NCBI GenBank assembly: GCA_026988435.1
Contig: JALSLH010000053.1
Coordinates: forward strand, 1 to 64,000
Origin: Methylophaga sp.
GTDB taxonomy: Bacteria > Pseudomonadota > Gammaproteobacteria > Nitrosococcales > Methylophagaceae
Reading direction: 5' to 3'
Length of the DNA: 64,000 bases
Shown: positions 815 to 58,599 of the stretch, piece by piece
How positions within the stretch are numbered: position 1 is the stretch's first letter
Layout: every line of letters begins with the position of its first letter
Position numbers and translations under genes: made by a program
The notes under the pieces: model-generated
Told to the model about the DNA's origin: nothing
Databases searched by the model: none
The model's input: only the letters and a program-made list of their open reading frames with translations

Positions 815-816
815 TA

Positions 817-1078
817 TACCCGTTACCATTCAATCTGCAGAATTCAGCATGAGAAGAAGCCATACTATTCTAGACATAAAGTCGCAGAATTAGTCATTCT
901 AATTTAAGACTTTATAACGACGAAGAGTGTGGCTTATTCTCTTGCCCTGTGGGAGATTAGCACAAGCGCCAGTGCCGCGTTACAATGTTTGACAAGGACT
1001 CGTCATTGCCTTCACATTGCGCCTTGCCCTGACGCTTGTGCTAAACTCTGAAATCTACAGATTGAATGGTCACGGGTA
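817..1078. repeat. 262-bp MITE-like element, type B, copy 1
   Basis: Non-coding element with terminal inverted repeats (TACCCGTTACCATTCAAT at the left, ATTGAATGGTCACGGGTA at the right), flanked by TA at 815-816 and 1079-1080. It is almost identical in sequence and identical in length to 58313-58574. Internally it has a two-stem hairpin domain (857-866 with 926-935; 876-883 with 908-915; inner 888-893 with 899-904). A second long hairpin pairs 957-972 with 1029-1044. TA flanks are typical of IS630/Tc1-mariner type MITEs; that assignment is inference. It ends 36 bp before the MscS start codon, so any promoter for that gene probably lies inside it. Confidence 0.88.
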
Positions 1079-1114
1079 TATAACAAACAAAATAAGAACA
1101 AGGATGCGAACACA

Positions 1115-6598: not shown

Positions 6599-6640
6599 AT
6601 GTGTCTCTTGATCAGCCAATCTGTGAATTTTCGCTCCTCC

Positions 6641-6769
6641 GTCACTCCGGTATGTTACCCAGTCAAGCTGAGCACAAGCTTAAGCCGGAGTCTAGTTTGT
6701 GCGGAGATCCCGGCTAAAAGAATACCGGGATGACAGGATTATTTTGCACATTGAATGATTATGGGTATA
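6641..6769. repeat. REP-like/type A TIR element, second copy (left end degenerate)
   Basis: Two hairpins: ACTCCGG/CCGGAGT (6644-6650 with 6684-6690) and ATCCCGG/CCGGGAT (in 6715-6733). They are followed by TTTTGCACATTGAATG and an ATGGGTA end with TA at 6768-6769, matching the right end of the element at 673-814. The left terminal repeat is not clear. The element abuts the 3' end of the RNase AM gene, whose stop is at 6774-6776. It explains most of the gap 6549-6773 apart from the terminator. Confidence 0.65.
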
Positions 6770-6773
6770 TGTC

Positions 6774-10460: not shown

Positions 10461-10481
10461 AAATATCAGGTTTTCAGTATA

Positions 10482-10648
10482 TACCCATGTTACCTCAATC
10501 TGCATGATTCAGAGTGCTTGAGCCATTCCAATTCTAGGCGCATCTATGCAGCAATGGTTATTCCCTTTCAAATAGATGAAACGACGAAGTGGGATGGCTC
10601 AAGCGCTTCTTCGATGGGTTTAAAACTATTCCTGACTGCCGACAGCCG
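10482..10648. repeat. Divergent, truncated type B-like element with covarying stems
   Basis: The left end reads TACCCATGTTACCTCAAT after TA, resembling the terminal repeat of the 262-bp elements. Stem 1 pairs 10516-10529 (GCTTGAGCCATTCC) with 10591-10604 (GGGATGGCTCAAGC). Stem 2 pairs CATCTAT (10541-10547) with ATAGATG (10572-10578). Single-stranded segments ATTCTAG and ACGACGAAG are shared with the 262-bp copies, while the stem bases differ on both sides. The right end is absent and the element runs into the pmbA stop. An apparent ORF across it is not considered real. Confidence 0.68.
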
Positions 10649-11977
10649 TTATCCTGCCACCATCATATTATCAATCCAAACCGAACCTGTTCTAGTGCTA
10701 CCTCTTGATTCGATATCATTACCGATAGCCTGGATCCCCATAAACATATCTTTTAAATTACTAGCAATGGTGAATTCATCAATGGGGTATTGAATCTCAC
10801 CATTTTCTACCCAAAAACCTGCGGCACCTTGTGAATAATCACCAGTAATGATGCTCACCCCCATACCCATTGTTTCGGTCACCAGTACACCTGTACCCAT
10901 TTCTTTAAGCAAGGCTTTAAAATCTAATTCGCCGCTATCAATGGTTAAATTGCGTACACCGCCAGCATTGCCTGTTGTTTTCATCTTGAGTTTTCGAGCT
11001 GAATAACTGTCTAAAACATAGCTTTGCAATATGCCATCGCTCACCAAATCACGCTTTTTGGTTGTTACGCCATCGCCATCAAATGCGGCGCTACCTAAGC
11101 CTTTTAATAAATAAGGCTGTTCATGGATATGCATAAAGTTAGGGAATATTTGCTTGTCTAAATGATCAAGCAAAAAAGATGATTTTCGATATTGGGCGCC
11201 GCCTCTTATCGCGGCAATAAACTTGCCAAATAACGAAGGTGCAACATCCGCCGCAAAAATAACCGGATAATTTCCGGTCTTAACTGTTCTAGCATTTAAT
11301 CGGCGTAAGGTATTTTCTGCCGCACGTTGACCAATATAAAGCGCTGATCTCATATCCGCCGCATCTCTTGCCATATCGTACCAATAATCACGCTGCATGC
11401 CACGCTCATCATCAGCAATTAATGTGCACACTAAACTATGTCGAGAGCTAATCGTATTGCCCACAAAGCCATGACTGTTGGCATAAACATAACCACTCTG
11501 ATGACTTGAAAGGCTACCGCCTTCTGAGTTCGTTATTTTCGAATCAACATCAAGGCCGGCTTGTTCACATTCTGTTGCAATAGCGATAGCTTCTTCTGCA
11601 TCAATATCCCACGGATGATGCAGCGATAAGTCAGGAAATTCTGTTGCCATCAATTGCGCATCTGCTAAGCCTGCACAATCATCTTCTTCGGTATGTTTTG
11701 CTATAGCTAAGGCAGCTTTAACTGTATCGCTTATCGCCTCTGGTCGCATATCGGAGGTACTGGCGGAGGCTTTTCTTTGCCCATAATAAACCGTTAGGCC
11801 TAGGCCTTTATCATTGTTATATTCTAATGTTTCGACTTCACCTTGTCGCACAGTAACAGATAGGCCATTGCTTTGGCTTACGCCGACTTCGGCCGATGTC
11901 GCACCTTGTTTTTTTGCTTGCTGCAATGCAATTTCAGCGGCTTGCTCTAAGCCGCTATTATCTATTCTCTCACTCAT
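10649..11977 (-). CDS. pmbA: Metalloprotease-related protein PmbA/TldE
   Basis: A 442-residue TldE/PmbA protein. E. coli TldD-TldE is a heterodimeric protease that cleaves unfolded peptides, matures microcin B17 and degrades the CcdA antitoxin; TldE lacks the metal site held by TldD. The sequence shows the family's SHQSGYVYANSHGFVG, DGDGVTTKKRDLVSDGIL and TGNAGGVRNL blocks at the usual places, and its length is typical. tldD is not in the window. It overlaps moeB by 4 bp, an unusual neighbour for pmbA. Confidence 0.95.
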   Translation of the reverse strand: MSERIDNSGLEQAAEIALQQAKKQGATSAEVGVSQSNGLSVTVRQGEVETLEYNNDKGLGLTVYYGQRKASASTSDMRPEAISDTVKAALAIAKHTEEDDCAGLADAQLMATEFPDLSLHHPWDIDAEEAIAIATECEQAGLDVDSKITNSEGGSLSSHQSGYVYANSHGFVGNTISSRHSLVCTLIADDERGMQRDYWYDMARDAADMRSALYIGQRAAENTLRRLNARTVKTGNYPVIFAADVAPSLFGKFIAAIRGGAQYRKSSFLLDHLDKQIFPNFMHIHEQPYLLKGLGSAAFDGDGVTTKKRDLVSDGILQSYVLDSYSARKLKMKTTGNAGGVRNLTIDSGELDFKALLKEMGTGVLVTETMGMGVSIITGDYSQGAAGFWVENGEIQYPIDEFTIASNLKDMFMGIQAIGNDIESRGSTRTGSVWIDNMMVAG

Positions 11978-13552: not shown

Positions 13553-13600
13553 TGCGACACATAATACTATGAGAGCTTTACACGATAAATATTTTTTGTT

Positions 13601-13679
13601 ATGGCAAGGCAAAAATAGTCGAAAAAGCGCAGTTTACTGATGTAAATGAGCATTTTGAGACTATTTTTAACGCCGCCAT
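13601..13679. repeat. Imperfect palindrome upstream of prmC
   Basis: ATGGCAAGGCAAAAATAGTC (13601-13620) pairs with the GACTATTTTTAACGCCGCCAT region ending at 13679; allowing small bulges the arms are about 20 bp. Between them a further AAAAGC/GCATTTT pairing extends the stem. I recall similar palindromes scattered between genes in other gammaproteobacteria, but this needs a search. It lies between prmC and the response regulator gene. Confidence 0.6.
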
Positions 13680-13710
13680 AGCGGAAAAGATGACTCGTGC
13701 AAAGGTCTCA

Positions 13711-21218: not shown

Positions 21219-21293
21219 GTCATTCCGGCAGGTTTTTAGCCGGAATCTAGGTCAATTGGAGTAGATCCCGGCTAAAAAGCCCACCGGGATGAC
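21219..21293. repeat. REP-like double hairpin
   Basis: Two adjacent hairpins: ATTCCGGC/GCCGGAAT (21222-21229 with 21239-21246) and ATCCCGG/CCGGGAT (21265-21271 with 21284-21290). The block is bounded by GTC and GAC, making the whole a palindrome-like unit. The same arrangement forms the interior of the elements at 673-814 and 6641-6769. The rest of the 458-bp gap 20986-21442 shows no gene or other feature that I can support. Confidence 0.78.
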
Positions 21294-21442
21294 CAAGGTA
21301 TTGGATACTTGTCTATATTTTCTTTTAAAAACTGAAAATTATTTAATATGCTCTTGCCCTGGGAAGATAATGCCTTAAGTATCCCTTAATTCAAAGATTA
21401 TATTATACTGTTCGTCTAAAACATCTTAAACTTGGAAAAACA

Positions 21443-44338: not shown

Positions 44339-45355
44339 CTATTTTGCAGGTAAAAGGCTTTTCAGTCTATCCCAAACCTGTTCTACGGTTATATTTTCCA
44401 TTCCAATCGGCTCGCCTTGTTTTGCATTAACTAATGATTGCTGCAATAAATCACTGATAATATGCTGCTGGTTTTTACCGTAGGTGCCTATCCGTTTAGG
44501 ATTGGTTGCGCCATAAAGTGTGACTGACGGAATGCCTGCCACTGCCGCTAAATGTGCTAAACCGGTATCACTGCATACCGCGCCTGTAGCATTATGTGTA
44601 ATCGCCGCCATTTCATTTAAAGATAGTCTAGGCAATGCATGAGCCTGTGGGTTGGCACTAGCGATCTGCTGCGCACGTTGATATTCCTCATCATTGCCGC
44701 AAGGCAGTAGTACCGAATAGCCCGAAGCAACTGCTTTTTCAATTAAATCCTGCCATGATGAAACTGGCCATAACTTAGTTAACCAACTGGCATTATGCAC
44801 AAACAATAGGTAGTTGTCTGGCAGTTTAATATCCAGTTTTGGCAATGGGTATAAACTTAAATCAACACCATAATCGGCGGGCATGTCTGGCAAACTATAG
44901 TTCAATGCTTGTGCCATTAATTCACGCATTTTTTCAATTGAATGTTGATTGGTATTGACGGTATAACGATATTTATATGCCCAGTGTGCGGGTTTTTCGC
45001 GAACACAGCTTTTATCTAATCCTGATACATTGCTTTTACACAACCACGATACCACCGCGCTTTTTAGATTGCTCTGTAAGTCAATCACTGCATCATAATC
45101 TTGTGCATTGAGCTGTTTGTAGAAGTTTGGCAATCGACCGTCTTTCCATGCAGAAATAGGTTGTTTTCGCCATTGCCGATGAGCCGTTTTTATAAGGTGT
45201 TTTACATTAGGGTGCCATAGAGGAACATCGGCAAACGCCTGATCGACAACCCAATCAAATTCGATATCAGAGATCGCACGTGCCGCGTCTGTTATGGCAG
45301 GCAAGGCGTGCATTAAATCGCCCATTGAGGTTAGTTTTATAATTAAAACACGCAT
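44339..45355 (-). CDS. waaC: LPS heptosyltransferase I
   Basis: A 338-residue GT9 enzyme that transfers the first heptose from ADP-heptose to Kdo of Kdo2-lipid A. LIIKLTSMGDLMHALPAITDA at the start and AAITHNATGAVCSDTGLAHLAAVAG near the C-terminus are WaaC hallmarks. An in-frame TTG precedes the ATG at 45355, but it is part of a palindromic repeat and the ATG is preferred. The repeat's left arm covers the first bases of the start codon region, so the translation start is inside a potential hairpin. It is co-directional with hldE downstream and thrB upstream. Confidence 0.95.
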   Translation of the reverse strand: MRVLIIKLTSMGDLMHALPAITDAARAISDIEFDWVVDQAFADVPLWHPNVKHLIKTAHRQWRKQPISAWKDGRLPNFYKQLNAQDYDAVIDLQSNLKSAVVSWLCKSNVSGLDKSCVREKPAHWAYKYRYTVNTNQHSIEKMRELMAQALNYSLPDMPADYGVDLSLYPLPKLDIKLPDNYLLFVHNASWLTKLWPVSSWQDLIEKAVASGYSVLLPCGNDEEYQRAQQIASANPQAHALPRLSLNEMAAITHNATGAVCSDTGLAHLAAVAGIPSVTLYGATNPKRIGTYGKNQQHIISDLLQQSLVNAKQGEPIGMENITVEQVWDRLKSLLPAK

Positions 45356-45433
45356 CAATGGGGTTAGACTCGATTGATTCTAAATTGATACTTAGCAAAC
45401 CCGCCAAAATCAATCGAGTCTGACCCCATTGAT
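45354..45433. repeat. GGGGTCA-family palindrome filling the waaC-thrB gap
   Basis: Arms of 26 bp: 45354-45379 (ATCAATGGGGTTAGACTCGA then TTGATT) and 45408-45433, complementary except for one base, around a 28-bp loop. The element spans the entire gap between the thrB stop (45434-45436) and the waaC ATG (45353-45355), including two bases of the latter. As RNA the hairpin would sequester the waaC ribosome-binding region. Confidence 0.88.
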
Positions 45434-46834: not shown

Positions 46835-49585
46835 ATGAAACAATCTGCCCCTTTTATCTTAGTTGATGGTTCCTCTTATCTTTATCGCGCTTACCATGCG
46901 ATGAGCCAAGCCAATCTTACTAATGCCCAAGGGCAAGCCACTGGCGCAATTTATGGGGTGGTGAATATGCTTAGGAAGCTACTGGCCCAATATAAACCTG
47001 AGCTTATCGCCGTCGTTTTTGATGCTAAGGGAAAAACCTTTCGCAACGATATGTACCCTGAATATAAAGCCACTCGTCCACCAATGCCGGATGATTTGCG
47101 CGAACAAATCGAGCCTTTGCATGATGTGGTTCGCGCGATGGGGTTTCCGCTAATTATGGTTTCAGGCGTTGAGGCAGACGATGTTATTGGCACGCTTGCA
47201 CATCAAGCAACTGAACTCAAAATTGATACCGTCATATCTACCGGCGATAAAGATATGGCGCAGCTCGTTAATGAGCATGTCACCCTTATTAATACCATGA
47301 GCAATACTATGACCGATGTGAATGCCGTTCATGAAAAGTATGGCATTGCTCCCAATCGTATTATTGATTACCTCGCGCTAATGGGAGACAAGGTCGATAA
47401 TATTCCCGGTGTACCAAGTGTGGGGCCTAAAACAGCGACTAAGCTATTACAGCAATATGATTCACTTGAGGGCGTTATAGCTCATGCCGAAGAAGTAAAA
47501 GGAAAAATGGGGGAGAAATTACGCGAAGCGGCGGCAGACTTGCCTTTATCATATCAACTGGCCACCATTAAACTAGATGTTGAGTTAGACGATACGCCCA
47601 CTAGCTTGAAATTGAAACAGCCTGATAATGAAGCACTGTTAGCCTTATTTAAGCATCTTGAATTTAGAACATGGACAAACGAATTAGAAAATCAAGGGGG
47701 CAGCCAGCTTGATTCCTCTCATCAAAAGCCAGATCACGGTAAACCTTCAGGAATCAAGCTGGCTGACCCCTTGATTCAGAACTACGAAACTATACTAACG
47801 GATGCACAGCTACAATCATGGCTTAAAAAACTAAAAGAATCTGATCTTTTTGCTTTTGATACTGAAACCACTAGCCTAAATTATCTTGATGCACGTATTG
47901 TCGGTTTATCATTCGCAGTTAACGCTGGCGAAGCGGCCTATTTACCTCTAAAGCACGATTATATCGGCGCGCCAGAACAACTTGATTTTGATTCGGTGAT
48001 GGCACAGTTCAAGCCACTACTGGAAGATTCAAAACAATTAAAAGTAGGCCAAAACCTAAAATATGATCGCCATATTTTGCTCAATCACGGTATTGATTTA
48101 CAGGGTATTCAACACGACACCATGTTGCAATCTTATGTCTTAAACAGCACGGCAACACAGCATAATATGGATGCATTAGCCGAGAAGTATCTAGATCGCA
48201 CTACCATTCATTTTGAAGATGTCGCTGGCAAAGGTAAAAAACAGCTCACCTTTAACCAAATTGATCTTGAGCAGGCTTCACCTTATGCCGCAGAAGATGC
48301 CGATATCACCTTGCAACTACATCAAGCTTTGTGGCCGCAATTACAAGCCATTCCCAGCCTAGAAAAGGTGTATTCCGAACTTGAAATGCCATTATTGCCG
48401 GTTATTAATACGCTGGAACGCAATGGTGTCAATATTGATATTTGGATGTTACAACAACAAAGCGACGAGCTTGGCCACAAAATTAATAAAATGGAAAAAC
48501 AAGCTTGGGATATCGCCGGTGAAGAATTCAATTTAGCTTCGCCTAAACAGTTAGGCACTATTTTGTATGAAAAGCTTGAACTTCCTATTTTGAAAAAAAC
48601 ACCAAAAGGCCAACCATCAACGGCTGAAAGCGTGTTGCAAGATCTTGCTGACGATGGTTATGAATTACCGCAAGTCATTATGCAATATCGTAGTTTAAGC
48701 AAGCTTAAGTCTACTTATACCGATCGATTGCCTGAACAGGTCAACCCAACAACAGGGCGTATTCATACTTCATACCATCAAGCCGTAACCGCTACCGGCC
48801 GTCTGTCATCTTCCGATCCCAACTTGCAGAATATTCCTATTCGCAGTGAAGAAGGTCGCCGTATTCGTGAAGCCTTTGTTCCGGCGGAAGGTAATACACT
48901 ATTAGCTGCCGATTATTCACAAATCGAATTGCGGATCATGGCGCATTTATCACAAGATAAAAGTCTACTAAAGGCATTTGCAGCTGGTGAAGATATTCAT
49001 CGCCACACCGCATCTGAAATATTTAATGTATCTTTAGAAGATGTCTCCAGCGATCAACGACGCAGTGCTAAAGCCATTAACTTTGGTTTGATTTATGGTA
49101 TGTCAGCACACGGTTTATCAAAACAATTAGGTATTGAGCGCCATCAAGCGGCGGATTATATGACCACCTATTTTGAGCGTTATCCGGGCGTAAAAGAGTA
49201 TATGAACAGCACCCGTGAGCAAGCCAAATTAGATGGTTATGTTGAAACATTATTCGGTCGCCGCTTATATCTTCCCGAAATTAATGCTAGCAACGGCATG
49301 CGTCGTCAATATGCTGAACGCACAGCAATTAATGCGCCCATGCAAGGCACCGCAGCAGATATTATCAAGCGTGCCATGATTAGCATTCAACATTGGTTAC
49401 AAGAATCAAACAGTAATATTCGAATGATTATGCAAGTACATGATGAATTGGTATTTGAAGTACCACTAGACCAGATTGATGATGCCAAAACTAACATTGA
49501 GAAATATATGGTTGATGCCGCGCAACTAGATGTGCCATTAGAAGTCAGTATGGATAGCGGTGATAATTGGGAGCAAGCACATTAA
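46835..49585 (+). CDS. polA: DNA polymerase I
   Basis: A 916-residue polymerase with three domains. Residues 1-285 are the 5' nuclease (ILVDGSSYLYRAYHA; GVEADDVIGTLA; GDKVDNIPGVPSVGPKTA). The 3'-5' exonuclease is intact (FAFDTETTSLNYLDARIVG; YAAEDADITLQLH). The polymerase has ADYSQIELRIMAHLS and MQVHDELVFEV. A GTG codon at 46820 is in frame, but the ATG at 46835 is preferred; neither has a clear ribosome site. The interdomain linker, residues 286-314, is encoded by an 87-bp palindromic repeat (47690-47776). Confidence 0.97.
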   Translation: MKQSAPFILVDGSSYLYRAYHAMSQANLTNAQGQATGAIYGVVNMLRKLLAQYKPELIAVVFDAKGKTFRNDMYPEYKATRPPMPDDLREQIEPLHDVVRAMGFPLIMVSGVEADDVIGTLAHQATELKIDTVISTGDKDMAQLVNEHVTLINTMSNTMTDVNAVHEKYGIAPNRIIDYLALMGDKVDNIPGVPSVGPKTATKLLQQYDSLEGVIAHAEEVKGKMGEKLREAAADLPLSYQLATIKLDVELDDTPTSLKLKQPDNEALLALFKHLEFRTWTNELENQGGSQLDSSHQKPDHGKPSGIKLADPLIQNYETILTDAQLQSWLKKLKESDLFAFDTETTSLNYLDARIVGLSFAVNAGEAAYLPLKHDYIGAPEQLDFDSVMAQFKPLLEDSKQLKVGQNLKYDRHILLNHGIDLQGIQHDTMLQSYVLNSTATQHNMDALAEKYLDRTTIHFEDVAGKGKKQLTFNQIDLEQASPYAAEDADITLQLHQALWPQLQAIPSLEKVYSELEMPLLPVINTLERNGVNIDIWMLQQQSDELGHKINKMEKQAWDIAGEEFNLASPKQLGTILYEKLELPILKKTPKGQPSTAESVLQDLADDGYELPQVIMQYRSLSKLKSTYTDRLPEQVNPTTGRIHTSYHQAVTATGRLSSSDPNLQNIPIRSEEGRRIREAFVPAEGNTLLAADYSQIELRIMAHLSQDKSLLKAFAAGEDIHRHTASEIFNVSLEDVSSDQRRSAKAINFGLIYGMSAHGLSKQLGIERHQAADYMTTYFERYPGVKEYMNSTREQAKLDGYVETLFGRRLYLPEINASNGMRRQYAERTAINAPMQGTAADIIKRAMISIQHWLQESNSNIRMIMQVHDELVFEVPLDQIDDAKTNIEKYMVDAAQLDVPLEVSMDSGDNWEQAH
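47690..47776. repeat. GGGGTCA-family palindrome inside polA
   Basis: Arms of 27 bp (47690-47716 and 47750-47776) are complementary except for one base, around a 33-bp loop. AATCAAGGGGGCAGCCAGCT begins the left arm and CTGGCTGACCCCTTGATT ends the right. The total length is 87 bp, exactly 29 codons, and the reading frame passes through it uninterrupted. It relates to the palindromes at 44267 and 45354. Confidence 0.92.
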
Positions 49586-51108: not shown

Positions 51109-51334
51109 CCACAGAGGCACAGAGTTCACTGAGGAAAGATTTATTCAATCATAATGCATTCTGAGGCTTGTTATCCAATTGTAATATGACAGATCGTAGG
51201 AGCGGATTCAGCCGCGAACAGCTAAGTTCCATTTACGGCTGAAGCCGTTCCCACGTTTTTATTAATTACGGGTAGATTACTAATTTATAGCCTTTTAAAA
51301 AATATTTTCCTCTGTGAACTCTGTGCCTCCGTGG
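51109..51334. repeat. 226-bp inverted-repeat element with a nested palindrome
   Basis: The outer arms of 29 bp, 51109-51137 (CCACAGAGGCACAGAGTTCA then CTGAGGAAA) and 51306-51334, are complementary with two mismatches. Nested inside are arms 51196-51214 (GTAGGAGCGGATTCAGCCG) and 51236-51254, complementary with three mismatches. No ORF is present. Both motif types look like common intergenic repeats of gammaproteobacteria as I remember them. With the terminator this explains most of the 365-bp gap 51031-51394. Confidence 0.78.
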
Positions 51335-58200: not shown

Positions 58201-58312
58201 TATTTCTGTCCTACGTCCGATATCTACATAGAAGTATATACGGGAATCTAGTTTGTCGTCTCAACTTGCATACTAGAATTTATATGCCAACTTGCATAGT
58301 ATGACTGTTTTA

Positions 58313-58574
58313 TACCCGTGACCATTCAATCTGCAGAATTCAGCATGGGAAGAAGCCATACTATTCTAGGCATAAAGTCGCAGAATTAGTCATTCTAATT
58401 TAAGACTTTATAACGACGAAGAGTGTGGCTTATTCTCTTGCCCTATGGGAGATTAGCACACGCGCCAGTGCTGCGTTACAATGTTTGACAAGGACTGGTC
58501 ATTGCCTTCACATTGCGCCTTGCTCTGACACTTGTGCTAATCTCTGAAATCTACAGATTGAATGGTCACGGGTA
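58313..58574. repeat. 262-bp MITE-like element, type B, copy 2
   Basis: Same length as the copy at 817-1078, and I count about ten base differences. Ends are TACCCGTGACCATTCAAT and ATTGAATGGTCACGGGTA, perfect inverted repeats over at least 18 bp, flanked by TA at 58311-58312 and 58575-58576. Both internal hairpins are kept, though the second has more mismatches here. It lies between lptM and pilB. The stretch 58201-58310 before it holds only a direct repeat of CAACTTGCATA (58262 and 58288). Confidence 0.9.
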
Positions 58575-58599
58575 TAGTATAAAACAAGCTCATATTGAA

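Follow-up and report, generated by a model that had tools for sequence, protein, structure and literature searches.

The usual account of bacterial MITEs treats each family separately, as the remnants of one insertion sequence. Among other short repeats, REPINs consist of two hairpins that face each other, with one strand preferred, and REPs, to our knowledge, lack transposon-type inverted repeats. The length given for REPs is 20–40 bp (PMC3733652). ERIC has been described as one long stem-loop (PMC2267715), with a length of about 127 bp (PMC2229807), and a study of Photorhabdus connects ends of the kind reported here with 'CCC-type' IS630 as well as with MITEPlu5, a relative of ERIC (PMC6267812). 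Precedents for MITE action at the RNA level are ERIC, through an RNase E site, and Correia/NEMIS, through RNase III (PMC10969869, PMC2229807).

In the window, by which we mean the whole 64-kb stretch of DNA that was analysed, we found three copies of one element type, two of them intact (A type) and one divergent and truncated (C type; Table 1). Common to all three is a 91-nt hairpin with a first stem of 15–16 bp (one mismatch in the A type), an internal loop ATTCTAGGC/ACGACGAAG (consensus over a wider set, CAAGGC/AACGCNG), a second stem of 7–8 bp (CATCTAT/ATAGATG in the C copy) and a third stem-loop beyond; in the second intact element the stems are AAGCCATACT/AGTGTGGCTT and ATAAAGTC/GACTTTAT. 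The stems quoted in a preliminary description of this DNA are real, but stem 1 is longer than was given there, at 15 bp in the C copy; the loop, which had been called unpaired and conserved, is indeed conserved, but contains TTC and GAA that can pair and that are nearly invariant (20, 20 and 18 of 20 sequences). The same description had named misaligned loops as a possible objection. We found the loops in register, with ATTCTAGGC and ACGACGAAG 41 nt apart in the A, B and C element types; the spacing is 40, 42 or 43 nt in three relatives and 89–91 nt in hairpins with nested inserts.

Table 1. Features of the elements in the window, with E values for the hairpin models R1 and R2.
Feature	Positions	Strand	Remarks
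Intact A-type element	815..1080	+	266 bp (262-bp copy of the preliminary description)
Inverted repeats of that element	815-847 and 1048-1080		
First hairpin of that element	851..941	sense on +	R2 E=4.4e-18
Second hairpin of that element	956..1045	sense on -	R2 E=4.4e-14
Left terminal inverted repeat, divergent (C) copy	10480..10504	+	TATACCCATGTTACCTCAATCTGCA; pattern match
C-copy hairpin	10515..10605	+	R2 E=2.3e-19; fold
Spacer and start of lost second half, C copy	10606..10626	+	CTTCTTCGATGGGTTTAAAA
Weak single relative of the hairpin	13586..13694	+	R2 E=8.8e-6; fold z -6.2
Second intact A-type element	58311..58576	+	266 bp (262-bp copy of the preliminary description)
Inverted repeats of the second intact element	58311-58343 and 58544-58576		
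First hairpin of the second intact element	58347..58437	+	R2 E=6.9e-19; folds
Second hairpin of the second intact element	58452..58541	-	R2 E=8.9e-14; R1 E=3.7e-6; faces first

Both intact copies carry 33-bp inverted ends (e.g., TATACCCGTGACCATTCAATCTGCAGAATTCAG) and, on the opposite strand, a further such hairpin 14 nt away from the first, giving the plan end, hairpin (+), short spacer, hairpin (-), end; since the second hairpin sits on the other strand, the element is in plan nearly its own reverse complement. This facing hairpin and the wide distribution of the element were absent from the preliminary description. Fold z-scores ranged from -4.0 to -8.7 in six folds of 91–92 nt (four sense strands and two reverse complements), and that of a whole 266-bp copy was -11.2. 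In the C copy, TATACCC marks the start at 10480, and the element is cut short near 10626, before reaching the stop of pmbA at 10649; when compared to a locus in a same-genus genome (L032), this copy is missing the second hairpin and the right end, and both ends are present in full-length C copies of relatives. Neighbouring ORFs are divergent around both intact copies and convergent around the truncated one. The weak relative near the border of two minus-strand ORFs (CAAGGC-AAAAAUAGUC..GACUAUUUUU-AACGCCG) differs in its apical part and showed no terminal repeats by eye.

Other repeats were seen in the window. A small TATACCC-ended element at 671–816 abuts the first A copy and has a different core, GTCATTCCGGC..GCCGGAAT, with a similar core again at about 6630–6771 and 21219–21300. 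Further long inverted repeats, apart from the element, lie at 45354–45433, 47690–47776 and 51109–51334.

The preliminary description had pointed out compensating base changes in both stems between element families, and this is borne out: the quoted stems and loops are present, and 24 of 34 pairs are changed on both sides. We aligned 20 own-genus sequences found by BLAST, nine of the C or a related type and eleven of the A or B type (three of 23 distinct cores, two of A type and one with an N, were left out). The covariation score was 0.702 as against 0.223 in shuffles, none of 500 shuffles reached 0.702, and slid registers gave at most 0.148. A model built from these 20 sequences (R1) yielded 61 hits in 47 loci (alignment A2), in which all 34 pairs are changed on both sides (score 0.948 vs. 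0.225), and the model of those 61 hits (R2) yielded 97 hits in 52 loci (alignment A3; 0.856 vs. 0.203). In A2 and A3, hairpins separated by less than 60 nt form 51 pairs, every one of them arranged (+,-) and 47 with a spacer of 13–17 nt, so transcription from either side meets a sense hairpin first; this uniformity may reflect one inherited event.

Since these hits were picked by models that reward pairing, we also searched the named-genome collection by a pattern that combines the loops with the third stem and leaves stems 1 and 2 unconstrained save for one purine at the foot of stem 2. The scan gave at least 110 stretches, with 108 usable hits, 103 of them distinct, among the matches listed. 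Within these 103 listed hits, stem 2 was paired at 95.6%, as against 53.6% with the 3' halves swapped, and stem 1 at 89.7% in the expected register, as against 35–49% in six others; the best register was at least 80% paired in 89 of the 103, compared to 7% of swapped controls. We drew 42 independent nearest pairs from the 89 listed hits whose stem 1 pairs at 70% or more in register 0, a design that limits, without removing, the effect of shared ancestry, and in these pairs both sides of a base pair had changed 82 times when 32.1 were expected. Pairing was kept in both sequences for 73 of the 82 double changes, and 56 of 92 one-sided changes were still paired. Covariation goes beyond shared ancestry here, as would be expected of a structured RNA element.

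Double changes could also arise with no selection at all, by template switching during replication, in which one arm is copied onto the other; such quasipalindrome correction is known for imperfect palindromes. Copying of this sort should, however, erase the internal loop, and AGGC is kept in 58 and AACG/AACA in 59 of the 61 A2 hits. Both loop strands are likewise kept in all 53 of the 97 A3 rows that fall outside the scan pattern (the other 44 have them by construction). Nor should such copying make G·U commoner than A·C, as the counts show it to be, and we regard this origin as extremely improbable.

On the strand that reads CAAGGC, the listed scan hits gave counts of G·U to A·C of 107:18 for stem 1, taking only hits paired at 70% or more, and of 47:2 for stem 2, taking every listed hit. 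The counts were 30:2 for 15 dissimilar representatives and 27:4 for the first stem of the BLAST set; the single-hairpin set, which was model-selected, gave 115:6 over 37 hairpins. Because G·U far exceeds A·C, and the opposite strand turns every G·U into A·C, one strand is selected for folding, and a role as duplex or symmetric cruciform is disfavoured. The preliminary description had spoken of selection on a folded RNA or single-stranded DNA, with which the pairing-blind scan, the nearest-pair test and these counts agree. The excess looks RNA-like, being the pattern that would be expected of RNA; single-stranded DNA, too, tolerates G·T better than A·C, so the preference for one strand falls short of proving RNA. 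A structured, one-stranded element carried by mini-transposons is real, its internal and apical loops conserved and its stems free to covary, and most likely the hairpin acts as RNA on read-through transcripts, with a putative partner that reads the loop.

Some hairpins carry nested inserts of about 48–50 nt in the apical loop (L015–L020, L022, L037 and L041). Each insert consists of two mini-hairpins, stem-TGCTCCTGC-stem and NNNCA-TCCA-TGNNN, the stems of which vary between copies in a matched way, as judged by eye. The pattern GCTCCTGC..CATCCATG was seen in 14 of the 235 loci searched, in some of them without nesting.

The element is small, has no transposase gene, bears terminal inverted repeats and occurs in many copies in one genome, as is typical of MITEs. 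Its own genome holds 14 A-type copies at 93–100% identity and eight longer copies with inserts, and most copies printed have TATACCC/GGGTATA borders, with TA at the border, between unrelated flanks. A DDE_3 (IS630-type) transposase match is present in 5 of 29 genus genomes. One of the same genus (G018) has an IS630 element of 1111 bp with a DDE_3 transposase, the open frame of which (380 aa) starts just outside the left end; its ends, TATACCCGTGATCATTGAAACTGCAG / TATACCCGTAATCCTTCAATTTGCAG, are of the same TATACCC..TGCAG kind as TATACCCGTGACCATTCAATCTGCAG in the MITE. The own genome has broken IS630 relatives only, one of them with such an end. Because a same-genus IS630 element has matching ends, IS630 likely moves the window's element family in trans, as far as likeness of ends can tell. 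The G018 element abuts a B-type MITE, lying exactly at its end (L231, 70–1180), where GGGTA and TATACCC meet.

Elsewhere the same core lies, by eye, within ends CTAGTGTCCTGTC, TTAGTACTCCGTCA, CTAGGGTCTGTTGACGTTTC, TAGGGAAGCTCTGATT and TATACCAATC, and in the own genome the same hairpin was seen by eye with three kinds of end: TATACCC, TAGGGAGCCTCTGAACAAGTC and GGGTCCCTCTATCTGTTTAAG. Since the core occurs with several unrelated end types, several transposases are probably involved. TATACCC-ended elements of the own genome hold two hairpins or one, again by eye; a single-hairpin family of about 140–165 bp with TATACCC-type ends was noticed there (L237–L240, L244 and L245).

These ends bear on whether the hairpin might be needed for DDE transposition itself, joining the ends as folded or cruciform DNA. 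Its place between the ends, the nearly constant spacer between hairpins and the strong fold of the whole 266 bp would suit such a role, but the same core accompanies unrelated end types, even in one genome. Moreover, the hairpin model had no match between the IS630 element's own ends (L231 and L234), the two matches in L234 both lying in the neighbouring MITE, and use as duplex or cruciform predicts G·T equal to A·C. We consider a part in DDE transposition quite improbable.

R1 matched at E ≤ 0.001 in 17 of 29 genus genomes and in 53 of 274 class genomes, the own genome included. Of 398 phylum genomes, 108 had an R2 match at E ≤ 1e-4; counting the own genome, 50 of these are from its class and 58 from other classes. 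Hosts among the matches listed include Pseudomonas, Stutzerimonas, Azotobacter, Shewanella, Colwellia, Paraglaciecola, Microbulbifer and Thiohalomonas. A typical two-hairpin copy (L137) was seen on a contig binned as Aquificaceae, which could be transfer or a binning error. Phages gave no match to one Pseudomonas copy used as query, viral contigs gave one stretch that exactly matches the loop pattern, and five plasmid records matched one query, with the match between annotated genes in the two examined.

This spread across classes, together with the weak relative at 13586–13694 that has no visible ends, would fit a regulatory or small RNA that serves the host and was picked up by transposons. 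Against this, inverted ends are seen by eye on most copies printed, and 221 of 274 class genomes are without an R1 match at E ≤ 0.001, which makes a host RNA very improbable.

The statement in the preliminary description that no named RNA family fits holds for Rfam 15 at its gathering cut-offs, where there were no matches in the window and none in the 20 loci searched out of the 29 class-wide ones (L076–L104). Relaxed Rfam searches of two element regions returned four matches, to mir-3473 (on both strands), rliG and a group-II intron model, all far below the cut-offs and attributed to chance. The core is undescribed in the open PMC literature searched, and a string search of the same literature returned only papers unrelated by title.

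The sense strand of the hairpin could instead work as single-stranded DNA, extruded at replication forks or within a transposition complex and handled by a hairpin enzyme, as in REP/REPIN-RAYT systems (Y1). Facing hairpins resemble REPIN, one folded strand is preferred, and Y1_Tnp genes are present in 77 of 108 genomes with the hairpin as against 136 of 290 without it (Fisher p 1.5e-5, an association that ignores kinship). Y1_Tnp covers IS200 as well, however, and 31 of the 108 positive genomes, some of them incomplete, are without a Y1_Tnp match at E ≤ 0.001; a Y1 transposase, though associated, was not adopted as the partner because of these genomes. Furthermore, the inverted repeats of the window's elements are of the DDE type, with TA, and an IS630 element turned up as partner. 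Action as single-stranded DNA seems to us rather unlikely.

Gene context was taken from simple ORF calls. The 80 loci on named contigs comprised 27 tandem, 16 convergent, 10 divergent, 17 edge, 8 inside an ORF and 2 far; the 29 class loci, 8 tandem, 6 convergent, 3 divergent, 6 inside an ORF and 6 unclassed; and the 30 own-genome loci, 16 tandem, 8 divergent, 2 convergent, 3 edge and 1 unclassed. Compared to a length baseline of 56% tandem, 31% divergent and 14% convergent, convergent sites are in excess among the named-contig and the class loci but too few in the own genome, and we therefore claim no placement bias.

One-hairpin elements, being asymmetric, are informative on direction. We took 40 single-hairpin regions from the matches listed and used 38, two cut by contig ends being left out. 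Between tandem genes, 18 hairpins lay opposite to and 6 in the same direction as the genes (two-sided p 0.023; 17:6 and p 0.035 with stricter ORFs), and the other loci were divergent (5), convergent (5) or far (2), or had another hairpin close by (2). In a second set of 10 regions with 13 hits, of which 4 hits in two facing-pair loci were left out, the remaining 9 were 5 opposite, 0 same, 2 divergent and 2 edge (4 opposite with stricter ORFs). Genes tend to be oriented along the direction of replication, so the bias could reflect replication; for this reason, and as the ORF calls are simple and the test was conceived after the data had been seen, we take the result as a hint, and no more, that transcription feels the hairpin. 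The bias would mean that host mRNA mostly carries the antisense strand, and the RNA, if acting, would work in transcripts from the other side or be purged from host mRNA. A sense hairpin in mRNA is apparently not strongly harmful, since two-hairpin types often lie between tandem genes (16 of 26 classed loci of the own genome). In the C copy, promoter-like and terminator-like sites (0 and 0) did not exceed chance; for the A copy, 3 sites of the promoter-like kind compare with 1.3 expected. An intrinsic terminator was considered and rejected, as neither element region contains a terminator-like site.

On balance we hold it to be probable, if only just, that the hairpin is the core of a non-autonomous IS630-type MITE family that IS630 moves in trans, and that it works as RNA. 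The IS630 transposase would act in trans on the TATACCC..GGGTATA ends at TA targets; read-through transcription would copy the CAAGGC strand, and the nascent RNA would fold. A conserved cellular protein, or an RNase, would then recognise the internal loop and terminate, cut or stabilise that transcript, the facing hairpins ensuring that a transcript from either side meets a sense hairpin first. In this way the hairpin would set the effects of insertions on neighbouring genes and, with them, how well insertions are tolerated. More tentatively, and with doubt prevailing, we suggest one ancient RNA module that a conserved bacterial protein binds and that unrelated mini-transposon families carry as cargo across Proteobacteria, the module swapping its ends and keeping its loops. 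If true, the module would be a portable cis-acting RNA, and insertions would act on, or be shielded from, read-through transcription. The testable question is which protein reads the AAGGC/AACG loop, and whether the action is by RNA or single-stranded DNA.

Of the systems compared, REP/REPIN-RAYT shares with this element the facing hairpins and the preferred strand. Unlike REPs and REPINs, the units here are 91 nt long and lie inside inverted ends, and Y1 genes do not accompany the repeat wherever it occurs, so that neither in size and lack of terminal repeats nor in partner does the element belong with them. ERIC and its relatives (MITEYpe1, MITEPlu5), as far as described in PMC6267812 and PMC2229807, are alike in having TA, CCC near the terminus and IS630-type ends, and in being small, present in many copies and strongly folded. 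The present element differs from ERIC, compared by description only, in having 91-nt hairpins, one or two of them, with CAAGGC/AACGCNG loops, in occurring with several types of end, and in covariation that spans classes. Correia/NEMIS resembles it as a MITE with an RNA-level effect by RNase III (PMC10969869, PMC2229807) and is set apart, again by description, as an element of Neisseria that is cut at its terminal repeats. YPAL (RU-2) of Yersinia is palindromic, mobile and 168 bp long (PMC2759123), and its centre, TACATGGATGTA, resembles by eye the second mini-hairpin of the nested inserts; in the letters printed in that source no CAAGGC/AACGC loop pair was noticed by eye. R200 (320 bp) and R6 (177 bp) of Pseudomonas fluorescens roughly fit the two-hairpin elements in size and host, going by their description in PMC2718517, and may be the same element under another name. 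A covariance model of the hairpin would name many unannotated intergenic repeats in Pseudomonas, Shewanella and relatives. One folded core, strongly covarying and with no match at the Rfam cut-offs in the window or the loci searched, is here common to MITEs with unrelated ends.
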